27,671 nt of DNA from a virus, in the IMG/VR virus record IMGVR_UViG_3300021138_000132, positions 1-27,671 of that record, one strand, 5' to 3'. Position numbers and translations under genes: made by a program. Shown one piece after another: positions 10,614 to 26,589 of the stretch (positions are counted from its first letter, which is position 1; each line of letters begins with the position of its first letter). The notes under the pieces are model-generated. The model did not search any database and had not been told where the DNA came from. It worked only from the letters and a program-made list of their open reading frames with translations.

Positions 10614-10642
10614 GGTGTCCCCTTTCGGGAGATCGTGTGGAC

Positions 10643-10756
10643 CGGGTGGGTACGTGGGAGAAGGGTGGAGGCGGTTCAACGGCCAGGGGATTGCCGGACA
10701 GGCCTCATGTACACCCCTCCCCCACGTACCCACCCGATCGAAACCGGGTGGGTACG
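10643..10756. repeat. Three-armed inverted repeat between capsid gene and downstream gene
   Basis: Three copies of a GT-rich unit lie in a non-coding gap of about 170 bases. Copy 1 is 10643-10667 on the plus strand, copy 2 is 10712-10736 inverted (23 of 25 bases match copy 1), and copy 3 is 10745-10756 in the plus orientation. Copies 2 and 3 form a perfect 12-bp stem (CGTACCCACCCG with CGGGTGGGTACG) with an 8-base loop. Copies 1 and 2 form a longer stem with a 44-base loop. The two stems exclude each other. In the transcript the capsid gene lies upstream. A role in termination, attenuation or RNA processing is inferred. Confidence 0.85.
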
Positions 10757-10784: not shown

Positions 10785-12116
10785 TTAGAAGCCCGCCGGG
10801 TTGGCCAGGCCGGTGCCCGAGATGATCGAGACCGACTCGCCGCGACGGCAGAGCGCCGACACGTAGCCGTAGCAGCGGTACCGCAGGGTGTTGGTGGCGG
10901 AACCCGGGGCCCGGAAGACCTCGAGGGTCGGGCCAGCTGCGGTCTCCATCGCCCAGATCTCACTCATGATGGCGGTGATGATCGGGGTCGTGGAAACCTC
11001 GCTGACGGTCGCCGACGGCAGGTTGCCGTCGAGGATGACGTCCGAACCGATGGCCAGCTTGCCTGCGACGCCCTGAGCGATACCCGTCGGGGTGACGCCC
11101 TGCGCGTTGTAGTTGGCGAGGCCAGTGCTCGCGACAACGGGACGACCAGTAGTGTCAGCCTCGGAAAGCAGATTGTACCACTGCGCCGGGGTCATGATCG
11201 TGGTGGTCGGGATGTTGCCGATCTTGCGGTTCGTGGCGATCTGGCTCACGGACTGTGCGACCGCAGTCAGGAACTCCTGAGCAGTGGGGCTGCTCGAGGT
11301 GAAGGTCACGTTGTTGGCCTCGGCCAGACCCTGGATGAAGCTCAGGATGTACTCGTCCTTGGCGCGCACGTACTCAGCCAGGAGGTCCTGGGTGATGACG
11401 AGATCGAAGATTCCGTTGGTGGAACGCTCGACTGCCTTGAGACTCACGTCGTAGAAGCCGGCCACGGTGTCGACAACGCCAGTGACGGTGTCCTCGACGA
11501 TGTCCCGGTTGTCGATGTCCGTGTTCTCAGTGCCCTGGACACCAATCTGAGTACCAGTCGCGACACGCGGCACGGTGAAGGTGTTGCCGTCAGTCTGGAG
11601 CTCAACCTGCTTGCAGGCGTCCCAGGTCGGGCTGGCCCAACGCAGAGCCTCAGCGAACTGAGCCTCGAGCCACACGGGCGCGGTGAAGTCGCCACCTGCA
11701 CCAGCAGTTGCCGAGCCGGCACGGGTCTCGAGGATGTTCTTGGCGTGACGAGCAAGACGCTCGTTGGCCTGGTCGACATTGCTGCCACCGACAAGGCCGT
11801 TGTGAGCGGCGAGGTCGCGGAAGAACGACACCTCGTGGGAGTTGTCCGCACGGTACTCGTGGGGCTCGTGGGTGATGGTGACCTTGGCAGCAGCAGCCTC
11901 GGCGATGTGGCGCGAACGCTCCACAGCCTCCTGGAGGTTGATGCGATCGGTCAGGTCCTTCATCTGGGCGGTGAGGCTCGCACTGCGGGTCTCCTCGTCC
12001 TCGGTGAGGGAACGGGTCTCGGCCTCGACGGTGTCCAGGATCTCCTGGGCCTCCGCGGCCACGGCTGCCCGACGCTCGATGAGCGTCTCGAGCAGGGTCT
12101 TGTCGGTGTCCGACAT
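10785..12116 (-). CDS. Major capsid protein (HK97 fold)
   Basis: A 443-residue protein. Residues 1-85 are a charged helical delta-type domain (MSDTDKTLLETLIERRAAVA, then DEETRSASLTAQMKDLTDRI) that serves as an internal scaffold in HK97-like phages and is removed by the prohead protease. The body carries GGDFTAPVWLEAQFAEAL, a T-loop and P-domain pattern, then LIVT-type segments such as TTTIMTPAQWYNLLSEADTT and GKLAIGSDVILDGNLP typical of phage_capsid family proteins. It follows the protease gene, as expected. Its ATG has a GGAG site (CTAAGGAGTCAAT). Hairpins lie on both sides of this gene. Confidence 0.95.
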   Translation of the reverse strand: MSDTDKTLLETLIERRAAVAAEAQEILDTVEAETRSLTEDEETRSASLTAQMKDLTDRINLQEAVERSRHIAEAAAAKVTITHEPHEYRADNSHEVSFFRDLAAHNGLVGGSNVDQANERLARHAKNILETRAGSATAGAGGDFTAPVWLEAQFAEALRWASPTWDACKQVELQTDGNTFTVPRVATGTQIGVQGTENTDIDNRDIVEDTVTGVVDTVAGFYDVSLKAVERSTNGIFDLVITQDLLAEYVRAKDEYILSFIQGLAEANNVTFTSSSPTAQEFLTAVAQSVSQIATNRKIGNIPTTTIMTPAQWYNLLSEADTTGRPVVASTGLANYNAQGVTPTGIAQGVAGKLAIGSDVILDGNLPSATVSEVSTTPIITAIMSEIWAMETAAGPTLEVFRAPGSATNTLRYRCYGYVSALCRRGESVSIISGTGLANPAGF

Positions 12117-17643: not shown

Positions 17644-18072
17644 TCAAGATTTCTTGGCCGCGTGTGGCCTATTGACTTTTACGTTGATGTAGAAGGTCGC
17701 CATATCGTCGTGTGACCAGCTGTAAGCGCGCTGCGGCGTGGCGCCGGTTAGTGCCACATCGCGCTCCCTGGCGCAGAGGACGGGAATTTCGGTTCGTTCG
17801 AACGGCCCTGGCACGCGCTCTTGGTAGATGAAGAGCTTGCTGGAGCCGGGCGCCATCGGCAGGCAGAGGATGACATCGGGCGATCGCGTCACAGACTCGT
17901 GCCACGCCTGGAGCTGCAGATAGGCCGATTCCTCGAGGACCGCGCCGACGATGACTGGGTAGTCCAGGCTGACCTCGTAGCCCCTGATCGAGAGGTCAGC
18001 CTGGATCGCCATCGCTTCGAAAACTCGGTTTGGCGGAGCCGAGATCATCAGCCTCGGCCGGATGAGATTCAC
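17644..18072 (-). CDS. Hypothetical protein
   Basis: A 142-residue protein, RPRLMISAPPNRVFEAMAIQ, then ADLSIRGYEVSLDYPVIVG, SPDVILCLPMAPGSSKLFIY and a C-terminal part with WSHDDMATFYINVKVNRP. The alternation of strands and helices and the 'xSAPPN...GYEVxxDYP...SPDVILCLPxxxxS' layout recalls small Rossmann-like nucleoside deoxyribosyltransferase or DUF4406 proteins, but key residues cannot be confirmed, so no function is given. It starts with GTG at 18072, whose GTGA overlaps the stop of the initiator gene, which implies coupling. Confidence 0.65.
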   Translation of the reverse strand: MNLIRPRLMISAPPNRVFEAMAIQADLSIRGYEVSLDYPVIVGAVLEESAYLQLQAWHESVTRSPDVILCLPMAPGSSKLFIYQERVPGPFERTEIPVLCARERDVALTGATPQRAYSWSHDDMATFYINVKVNRPHAAKKS

Positions 18073-19067
18073 GCTGCCTCCAGAGGCCTCTGAAGCGTCG
18101 TGTAACCGCCTGGAATCCCTGCTGTAGCCGGATGCGCGATCTCGCCGTCCACGAGCTTCCAGACGTGTCCTAGAGGCCCTGGGAAGGTGTAGCCGTCGGG
18201 TGCACCGGCGTTGTCAGTCGTCACCACCAGCGGCAGCGATTCATCGACGAGAGCCCACGGTACGAACTCCACGCCCGGCCAGTCGTGAGCCAAGTCCTCA
18301 ACCGTCTCGACCCACTCGCTTACCGTCCACCCCTGAACGGCATCAGCCATCACGCCGCTCGGCCAGAACAGTCCTGCATCCGCAATCCGCTCAGGAATGC
18401 GCACAGTCGGGATCTGTGTGTAGTGGCACTGAGGCTTCAGCAGAAAACCGTATCGGTCACGCTCCCTTTCATCCCTTGCTGCTTCATTTTCATTGTCCAA
18501 CGAAGCAGTAAAGGAGGCGTCACTCTTGCGAAGCGAAAGCTTCGCCAATTGTTGTTGATTGTTAGATTGATTGTTGTATTGATTGTTTGGGGTCAATCCG
18601 TGACAAAAACTGTCACAGATTGATCCCCCTGGGGTCAATCCGTGACAAAAACTGTCACAGATTGATCCCCCTTGGGCCTGTGTCACAGATTGATCCCCAC
18701 CAATCAAGCTCTCTCGGTACGACTGTTTCGACGCCACGGCGCCACGGCGAATCGCCTCATCGGGCTTGTCGAAGTTGAGGACGATGTGCCTCCCGCGATT
18801 TCCCACCTGTCCTTCCTCGAGGACGTCGGCGAGTCCACACTCGATGAGTTCGTTCAAGTGCTTCTTGAACGTGTTCACCGACCGAAATCCGCACTCGTCG
18901 CTCAGTAGCTCACGGCTTGCGAAGCACTCCGGGTAGTGGCTGGCGATCACGATCGCCACGGTCTTCGTGGCCCCCCATATGTCTCGCCTCGCCTTGATGC
19001 GCTTGACTGCATCGTATGAGCTCAGATTGCCGTTGTAGGCCTCTGTGCGGTCTTCCCATTCAGTCAT
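18069..19067 (-). CDS. Replication initiator-like protein with winged-helix N-terminus
   Basis: A 332-residue protein. Residues 15-110 look like a winged helix: YDAVKRIKARRDIWGATKTV, AIVIASHYPECFASRELLSD, ECGFRSVNTFKKHLNELIEC, then GLADVLEEGQVGNRGRHIVL. The middle has a 14-residue repeat GGSICDSFCHGLTP twice (about residues 132-159) and then an Asn/Gln-rich stretch; these are by-products of iterons and a T-rich DNA tract inside the gene. The C-terminal 130 residues have an unrecognised domain. A DNA-binding initiator gene with the origin in its middle is the plan of lambda O. It starts at ATG 19067, overlapping the upstream stop by 8 bases. Confidence 0.7.
   Translation of the reverse strand: MTEWEDRTEAYNGNLSSYDAVKRIKARRDIWGATKTVAIVIASHYPECFASRELLSDECGFRSVNTFKKHLNELIECGLADVLEEGQVGNRGRHIVLNFDKPDEAIRRGAVASKQSYRESLIGGDQSVTQAQGGSICDSFCHGLTPGGSICDSFCHGLTPNNQYNNQSNNQQQLAKLSLRKSDASFTASLDNENEAARDERERDRYGFLLKPQCHYTQIPTVRIPERIADAGLFWPSGVMADAVQGWTVSEWVETVEDLAHDWPGVEFVPWALVDESLPLVVTTDNAGAPDGYTFPGPLGHVWKLVDGEIAHPATAGIPGGYTTLQRPLEAA
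18547..18698. other. Candidate replication origin: iteron-like palindromes plus T-rich tract
   Basis: Two identical 42-base direct repeats (18589-18630 and 18631-18672) are followed by a third half copy (18681-18698). Each repeat is itself an imperfect palindrome: arm GGGGTCAATCCGTGACA, spacer AAAAC, and arm TGTCACAGATTGATCCCC, giving five half-sites in all. Directly beside them, 18547-18588 is T-rich with ATTGATTGTT repeated, a likely unwinding element. All lie inside the initiator gene. Repeats next to an AT-rich tract inside the initiator gene is the plan of the lambda origin. Confidence 0.75.
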
Positions 19068-24683: not shown

Positions 24684-25136
24684 GTGGACGCCGAAGAGTT
24701 GATTGCATCCCTCACGTCACTTGACGAAGACACGCAGATCTCGATCGATGGTTGGCACGAACTCTTCGTCAAGTTTGTGAACGAGTTCGTCGCCGCGGCC
24801 GACGTCGGCGAGGCCGACATGGTGGGTGGCGGCCAGTGGCGTCGCGAACTCAGTGAGCTCTGGCTTGACGCTCTCTGCGTCCCCGAAGACGACAAGTACC
24901 GCCTGCCGTTCCTCAATCGCACCGAGGACATCCTTTGGGAGGTGCAGCAGTCCCTCGACGCTGTGCCCGATACGGAGTGGCCGGCATGGCGCTCCGAGCG
25001 GATCGCCGCGACGCTCGCCGAGTTCGAGGCCATCGACCCAGACGTGACCGACGACACGTTCAGCTCCGTCATCACGATGTGGACGTTCGACTGCGCTCGC
25101 TGGCCGGGAAGGGAGCCGGATTACCTTGGCCAATAA
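24684..25136 (+). CDS. Hypothetical protein in integrase operon
   Basis: A 150-residue acidic protein from a GTG directly after the integrase stop: DAEELIASLTSLDEDTQISI, DGWHELFVKFVNEFVAAADV, then WRRELSELWLDALCVPEDDK and an acidic, Trp-rich C-terminus. No family is recognised. It overlaps the methyltransferase start by 11 bases, so integrase, this protein and the methyltransferase probably form one operon. It might be a partner of the methyltransferase, such as a specificity or inhibitor protein, but there is no motif to show this. Confidence 0.7.
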   Translation: MDAEELIASLTSLDEDTQISIDGWHELFVKFVNEFVAAADVGEADMVGGGQWRRELSELWLDALCVPEDDKYRLPFLNRTEDILWEVQQSLDAVPDTEWPAWRSERIAATLAEFEAIDPDVTDDTFSSVITMWTFDCARWPGREPDYLGQ

Positions 25137-26589
25137 CACGCTCTACTACGGCGACAACCTCGAAGTCATGCGTCAGCACATCGAGGACGAATCGGTGGAT
25201 CTGCTGTACCTCGACCCGCCGTTCAAGTCCAATGCCAGCTACAACGTTCTGTTCAAGGAGCACGACGAAGACGGAACCAAGTCGGCCGCTCAGATCGAAG
25301 CGTTCGACGACACCTGGCACTGGGATGCCTCGGCAGCGCAGGCGTACGATGAAGTGGTCAGGGACGGTGGTCGGCTCGCAGATGCGCTTGTGTCGCTGCA
25401 CAACTTCCTCGGGCCGTCGGACATGATGGCGTACCTCTCGATGATGGGTGTCCGCATGATCGAGATGAAGCGAGTGCTCAAACCCACCGGCAGCATCTTC
25501 CTGCACTGTGATCCGACAGCCAGCCACTACCTAAAGATCCTGATGGATGCGTGCTTCGGCGGCGATAACTTCCGGAACGAGATCATCTGGACCTACACCG
25601 GCCCATCAGCTCCCAAGCAGCGGCAGTTCAGCCGGAAGCACGATGTCATCTTCTGGTACTCGATGGGCGATGAGTGGACGTTCAACGTCGACGACGTCCG
25701 AATCCCGTACTCCAAGAAGACCAAGGAGAACTACAAGCCGGGACTGACTGGATCGGGTTTCGTGCCCGGCGACGACGACCAAGTGCGAGAGATCGACTCA
25801 AAGGGCAAGATCCCCGAGGACTACTGGCCATTCGCCATCGCTCCCCGCGGCAAGGAGTATCTGGGCTATCCCACCCAGAAGCCCCTGGCGCTTCTCGAGC
25901 GCATCATCAAGGCCGCCAGTAATCCCGGAGATGTCGTCCTCGACCCGTTCTGCGGTTGTGGCACAGCGACGGACGCGGCCCAACGTCTGGGCCGGCGCTG
26001 GATTGGGATAGATGTCACCCACCTGGCCATCAACCTCATCCGCAAACGCCTCGTAGACACCTATGGCGACGCGTGCGAGTTCGACGTCATAGGCGAACCG
26101 CAGGACATGGAAGGAGCTCGACAACTCGCCGGCTCCGATCCGTACCAGTTCCAGTGGTGGTCGCTTGGTCTGGTCGGAGCTCGACCCGCCGATCAGAAGA
26201 AGGGTGCCGACAAGGGCATCGATGGGAAGATCTACTTCAACGACGGGCAAGACGGGAAGACTCAACAGGTCCTGCTGTCAGTGAAGGCCGGCAAGGTCAG
26301 CGTGAGCCAGCTGCGCGACCTTCGCGGTGTCATCGAGCGAGAGAAAGCCGCGATCGGCGTGTTGTTGTCAATGGAGCCGCCGACCAAGCCCATGAGACAG
26401 GAGGCCGCGGACGCCGGTTATTACGAAGGCCCGTGGGGCAAGCGGTATCCACGACTCCAAATCTTGACGATCCAAGATCTCTTCAACGGGGCAACCATCG
26501 ACATGCCGGATAGGGGCTCGATGGCAAAGGACAAGACGCACCGCAAGGCAAAGAGCGCGGGTGCCCACGGCCAACAGAAGCTCATCTGA
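25126..26589 (+). CDS. DNA methyltransferase (beta class) with Mrr-like nuclease C-terminal domain
   Basis: A 487-residue protein from a TTG start with GGGAG upstream. The methyltransferase part has the catalytic motif LLYLDPPFKSNASY (DPPF at 30-33) before the AdoMet motif VVLDPFCGCGTATDAAQRLG (about residues 268-287), the order of beta-class N4-cytosine or N6-adenine enzymes. From about residue 355 a second domain has GADKGIDGKIYFNDGQDGK, VLLSVKAGKVSVSQLRDLRG, then VIEREKAAIGVLLSMEPPT and a conserved YPRLQILTIQDLFNG; GxDG plus (S)VKAG near residue 387 looks like a PD-(D/E)xK Mrr-type core. It may protect phage DNA or act against other DNA. Target site is unknown. Confidence 0.85.
   Translation: MANNTLYYGDNLEVMRQHIEDESVDLLYLDPPFKSNASYNVLFKEHDEDGTKSAAQIEAFDDTWHWDASAAQAYDEVVRDGGRLADALVSLHNFLGPSDMMAYLSMMGVRMIEMKRVLKPTGSIFLHCDPTASHYLKILMDACFGGDNFRNEIIWTYTGPSAPKQRQFSRKHDVIFWYSMGDEWTFNVDDVRIPYSKKTKENYKPGLTGSGFVPGDDDQVREIDSKGKIPEDYWPFAIAPRGKEYLGYPTQKPLALLERIIKAASNPGDVVLDPFCGCGTATDAAQRLGRRWIGIDVTHLAINLIRKRLVDTYGDACEFDVIGEPQDMEGARQLAGSDPYQFQWWSLGLVGARPADQKKGADKGIDGKIYFNDGQDGKTQQVLLSVKAGKVSVSQLRDLRGVIEREKAAIGVLLSMEPPTKPMRQEAADAGYYEGPWGKRYPRLQILTIQDLFNGATIDMPDRGSMAKDKTHRKAKSAGAHGQQKLI

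Follow-up and report, generated by a model that had tools for sequence, protein, structure and literature searches.

A probable replication origin within an O-like initiator gene of an uncultured phage

Introduction

Some phages carry a replication origin inside the gene of the protein that activates it. In lambda and the Stx phages, ori lies in the middle of O (PMC7466680), and oriL of SPP1 lies within gene 38 (PMC6316719). In the latter case, which we liken to the present locus from that paper alone, the initiator gene holds the direct repeats bound by its product, gp38, together with an AT-rich unwinding element.

The window analysed here is a full virus contig of 27,671 bases, that is, the whole of its record. 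A first-pass annotation of these letters had placed a replication origin at 18547-18698, inside the coding sequence of a winged-helix protein. Those coordinates proved right, and we consider it very probable, judging from sequence, that the segment is a theta-type, iteron-controlled phage origin embedded in its own initiator gene, on the plan of lambda ori within O.

Results

Repeats and an AT-rich tract within the gene

Both the repeats and the AT-rich tract fall within a single ORF of 332 codons, which is read from 19067 to 18069 (Table 1). The array is built from an 18-base unit, GGGGATCAATCTGTGACA, present between 18588 and 18698 as three exact copies on the coding (minus) strand and two inverted copies with three mismatches. 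As had been described in the first pass, the array comprises two identical 42-base imperfect palindromes plus a third half copy, all of which were recovered exactly; the arms of each palindrome differ from one another at three positions. When up to three mismatches were allowed, five matches to the unit were observed compared with 0.03 in shuffled sequences, and none of 100 shuffles reached five. The 42-mer pair and the 18-base unit are also the only direct repeats of at least 16 bases lying within 500 bases of each other in the entire record.

The T-rich tract reported beside the repeats was likewise confirmed. It is made of three 12-mers, TTGATTGTTNNN, at 18555-18590 (on the coding strand, three copies of AACAATCAANNN), and its GC content over 44 bases is 0.27 compared with 0.62, which makes it the AT-richest among 27,628 positions of the record. 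The least stable 50-mer of the record is found at 18547-18596. The tract adjoins the iterons toward the 3' end of the gene, and the lambda control agrees with this arrangement. The inverted repeat on its far side is suggestive only, because 0.07 of these would be expected by chance in 50 bp and none is present in phiPsal1. Additionally, the cumulative GC skew has its maximum at about 17.3-18.8 kb, within a block of co-directional genes, which is in weak agreement with an origin.

Table 1. Features of the putative origin and of the gene that contains it (window coordinates).
Feature	Position	Strand	Description or evidence
O-like replication initiator gene, 332 aa (P0001)	18069-19067	-	Pfam, PHROG, AF2 model, fold match
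Regions of P0001			winged helix, residues ~15-100; linker holding the putative origin, ~120-175; C-terminal part of no recognised family
42-bp repeat, copy 1	18588-18629	.	two inverted 18-bp arms, 18588-18605 and 18611-18628, 5 bp between
42-bp repeat, copy 2	18630-18671	.	identical to copy 1; arms 18630-18647 and 18653-18670, 5 bp between
Fifth unit, unpaired	18681-18698	-	exact 18-base copy in a different codon phase (GDQSVT, not GSICD)
AT-rich tract, probable DNA unwinding element	18546-18589	.	AT-richest 44 bp of the record; adjoins the iterons
Short inverted repeat	18528-18545	.	GCGAAGC-GAAA-GCTTCGC; 7-bp arms, beyond the AT tract as seen from the iterons

Other loci of the window were recorded in passing. 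An inverted repeat with 33 nt arms, 85% complementary and 44 nt apart, lies at 10635-10744, just past the 3' end of a capsid-like ORF of 443 aa (10785-12116), and contains three copies of CGGGTGGGTA. At 25126-26589, a DNA methylase (N6_N4_Mtase) carries, fused at its C-terminus, a domain resembling restriction endonucleases (NA-iREase1/Mrr_cat). The one Rfam match of the record, to a miRNA, lies away from the repeats and was discarded as being at chance level.

The initiator protein

Several lines of evidence agree with the earlier view that P0001 is a winged-helix protein. Its match to Pfam HTH_36 (4.1e-5, 23.7 bits) is narrowly below the cut-off of 25 bits, and in an alignment of residues 1-104 with 30 relatives, every one of the 31 proteins matches this family. 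The best PHROG match is to PHROG 270, replication initiation protein (E 3.5e-7, residues 29-196), and six of the seven PHROG matches are to replication families, namely initiators, a DnaD-like helicase loader and O-like proteins; the other is a weak one (E 0.52) to a transcription regulator. In an AF2 model of residues 1-104 (pLDDT 81.8), the structural elements follow one another as in a winged helix. Against predicted viral structures, the best match of this model is the putative replication protein O of the lambdoid Escherichia phage Min27 (E 2.5e-5, TM 0.69), and in the PDB it matches only generic winged-helix regulators, such as MarR. The fold is a moderate argument, because the alignment behind the model is shallow and divergent (the relatives are only 10-24% identical), and it is confined to the N-domain, as the full-length model, made without an alignment, has a pLDDT of 33.

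The first-pass statement that the protein does not resemble O holds at the level of Pfam, where P0001 has no match to PF04492 (Phage_rep_O) while lambda O, as a control, matches it at 5.7e-36, but not at the level of PHROGs, which give a weak O-like match, or of fold, where the best viral match is a protein O.

The rest of the protein is different. The match to PHROG 270 ends at position 168 of the 383 of the profile, while most relatives extend to about 250-270, and residues 200-332 have no match in Pfam, PHROGs or NCBIfam. No counterpart of the family's C-terminal domain, which in relatives reads FxxFWxxYPxK ... WLNxxxW, was found in P0001. From these comparisons, the N-domain belongs with initiators of the HTH_36/PHROG 270 type, and the C-terminal part departs from them. 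Among the neighbouring genes scanned in this record, which may be a fragment, there is no recognisable helicase or helicase loader of the lambda P, DnaC or DnaI type.

Relatives and their arrays

No direct homologue of P0001 was found in phages, viral contigs, plasmids, genome contigs or the records of 50 terminase relatives and, consequently, relatives had to be reached through the terminase. Eighty loci were obtained in this way, and the nearest isolate is Pontimonas phage phiPsal1. The iteron patterns of the window were not found in viral contigs, and no close homologue carrying its iterons was found in the collections searched. Two isolated palindromes in bacterial genome contigs, neither of them within an initiator gene, were discarded as unrelated.

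HTH_36 is present in the records of 11 of the 50 terminase relatives, and six of these proteins are replication-initiator-like (L086-L090 and L092). PHROGs confirmed this for five of the six, and L090 is almost the same as L089. In L086-L088 the winged helix is immediately followed by three or four copies of AGGGGTGACA, after which A-rich repeats appear in L088. The AT-richest 40 bp of the locus are found at gene nt 359-472 in the six O-like genes, phiPsal1 RepO and lambda O, and at nt 480 in the window. Exact 8-mer repeats exceed those of codon shuffles in six of nine genes (L086, L087, L088, phiPsal1, lambda and the window); no exact 8-mer triplets are present in L089, L090 and L092, whose repeats are not above the shuffles. 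In the comparison with related phages, which had been suggested as a check, the layout recurs, with the AT-richest stretch in mid-initiator; a close homologue of the protein or of the repeats was not found in the collections searched.

Two other kinds of array were seen among the terminase relatives. About eight copies of ACCCTTTCCC occupy some 150 bases in L014 (4015-4167) and L016 (1014-1166), where only a short and doubtful ORF lies over them, and this array is possibly an origin located outside an initiator gene. In L079 (5664-5729) and L084 (5674-5739), three copies of CGAAGCAAAG lie inside a gene of 233 aa and may perhaps be another embedded iteron array, in the gene of a different protein.

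A search of viral contigs for three copies of AGGGGTGACA gave at least 120 matches, from which 80 loci were examined (L117-L196). Within this sample of the matches, 79 of the 80 arrays fall within an ORF of the same strand, most often some 88-90 codons from its start; among the 71 that are non-redundant, 92% have a bottom-1% (AT-rich) 40-mer no more than 120 bp downstream, compared with 10% upstream and 13% at random positions; and, of 56 distinct arrays, 43 have copies of the unit in differing codon phases. As the set was chosen by motif, these figures show that the layout is common, not how frequent it is among all initiators. Many viral contigs, with GC from about 0.40 to 0.69, carry at least three copies of AGGGGTGACA in the linkers of winged-helix initiator genes, and AGGGGTGACA is apparently a widely shared iteron; among the matches listed in a literature search for GGGGTGACA, no paper was relevant and none named the AGGGGTGACA iteron. 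The unit of the window and the AGGGGTGACA core have only GTGACA in common, and we draw no homology from it.

Other explanations of the repeats

Dyad repeats are typical of operators, and in the PDB the N-domain matches transcription regulators, MarR among them, so the repeats could be operators, bound by the winged-helix protein or by a phage repressor, that control transcription instead of replication. However, this fold is common to initiators and regulators, and the repeats are in mid-gene, 370 bases past its start, with no promoter-like match near them and no further copies in intergenic control regions. As their coupling to the AT-richest tract also recurs in relatives, we regard control of transcription as very improbable.

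It is even harder to sustain that the 42-mers act as RNA, forming two strong mRNA hairpins that would affect translation, stability or termination. The RNA of the coding strand does fold much better than shuffled sequences (z = -6.2), but any DNA dyad folds as RNA, and the fifth unit stands alone, without an inverted partner. No Rfam family or terminator-like site was found at the repeats, and in the related arrays AGGGGTGACA is repeated directly and an AT-rich tract comes next, which is what would be expected of DNA sites.

The repeats are also visible in the protein, where the 14-residue sequence GGSICDSFCHGLTP occurs twice and is followed by NNQYNNQSNNQQQ. Since a period of 42 stays in frame and both copies give GGSICDSFCHGLTP, this Cys/His repeat and the Asn/Gln-rich linker could have been selected as peptide. 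The codon readings contradict this: the two direct copies within the palindromes encode GSICD, the third direct copy GDQSVT and the inverted copies CHGLTP, and the 18 bases are kept (18/18) across the change of phase and in both orientations, which indicates that DNA, and not peptide, is conserved here. In addition, the 42-mers are identical at all bases, third positions included, and all five Gln codons of the tract are CAA, compared with 22% of Gln codons elsewhere; codon phases are also mixed in the related arrays. The unit is thus conserved as DNA and not as peptide, and the first-pass view that the amino acid repeat and the Asn/Gln-rich stretch are by-products of an in-frame period is borne out, leaving selection for the peptide with hardly any credibility.

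Palindromic tandem units can also be debris of a mobile element, whether insertion-sequence ends or a small element made of palindromic repeats, but this is a barely tenable source of the repeats of the window, which have no copy in plasmids or viral contigs, a single chance-level match in phages and, in bacterial genomes, only the two unrelated palindromes mentioned above.

Discussion

An iteron-controlled origin inside the initiator gene is the explanation on which the PHROG initiator match, the O-like fold, the layout of relatives, the conservation at the DNA level and the AT-rich tract converge, and the plan of lambda ori in O, originally proposed for this segment, is upheld by them. By analogy with lambda and SPP1, the N-terminal winged helix of P0001 would bind all five units of 18 bp, probably with a dimer on each 38-bp dyad; its assembly would melt the adjacent tract of AT-rich 12-mers; and the C-terminal part would recruit the host helicase, either directly or through an unrecognised loader. 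The protein would tolerate the peptides dictated by its DNA because the unit sits in a flexible linker.

It had also been suggested that this might be an undescribed initiator-origin pair. The pair itself is new, as none of the collections searched contains this initiator or this iteron, but its kind is already known from lambda O, SPP1 gene 38, phiPsal1 RepO and the dozens of cases in our survey. Although P0001 falls outside the Pfam family of lambda O, it most likely works like lambda O/ori. We consider it unlikely that the locus represents a distinct lineage, in which an O-type winged helix is joined to an unrelated C-domain that loads the host helicase alone, and each 38-bp dyad is recognised as a head-to-head pair of sites or in the form of an extruded hairpin, in contrast to the direct iterons of lambda and of the GGGGTGACA phages.

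In this uncultured, temperate phage, the likely origin and its initiator can be placed from the letters of the DNA alone. A usable rule emerges for O-like winged-helix initiator genes, where iterons are to be looked for just after the N-domain and, following them, the least GC-rich stretch of the locus, at about gene nt 360-480; it could serve to annotate origins in many metagenomic phages. The locus also offers an example of a DNA site that writes the linker of a protein.

Comparison with known systems

SPP1 differs from the window in possessing a second origin as well as a loader and a helicase of its own. The similarity to lambda (L237, NC_001416) is one of layout: its iterons start in the middle of the initiator gene, at nt 349 (nt 370 in the window), and the AT-rich tract comes directly after them, at nt 436 (nt 480 in the window). 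In both, the tract is followed by a short inverted repeat, which in lambda ori occupies the equivalent relative place, and the origin segment is preceded by the winged-helix N-domain and followed by the C-domain. However, the window protein stands outside Phage_rep_O in Pfam and has a different C-terminal part, its iterons are unrelated in sequence and, unlike those of lambda, have their arms head to head in 38-bp dyads, and no lambda P-like loader was seen.

The initiators with AGGGGTGACA arrays (L086-L088 and L117-L196) resemble that of the window in having an HTH_36 N-domain, iterons that lie within the gene and are read in several frames, and AT-rich repeats downstream. They differ in that a 10-bp core is repeated directly, usually at intervals of about 21-23 bp, and in a conserved C-domain that is absent from the window protein.

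Finally, phiPsal1, which has an actinobacterial host, uses a different iteron, and the C-terminal half of its RepO (L238, 23804-24610) matches PHROG 270 further than P0001 does. Like P0001, RepO is a PHROG 270/HTH_36 protein, and its gene contains iterons, TTCCACTGTGG, with a period of 15 bp, followed by the AT-richest stretch of the phage genome, which is the same layout as that of the window.
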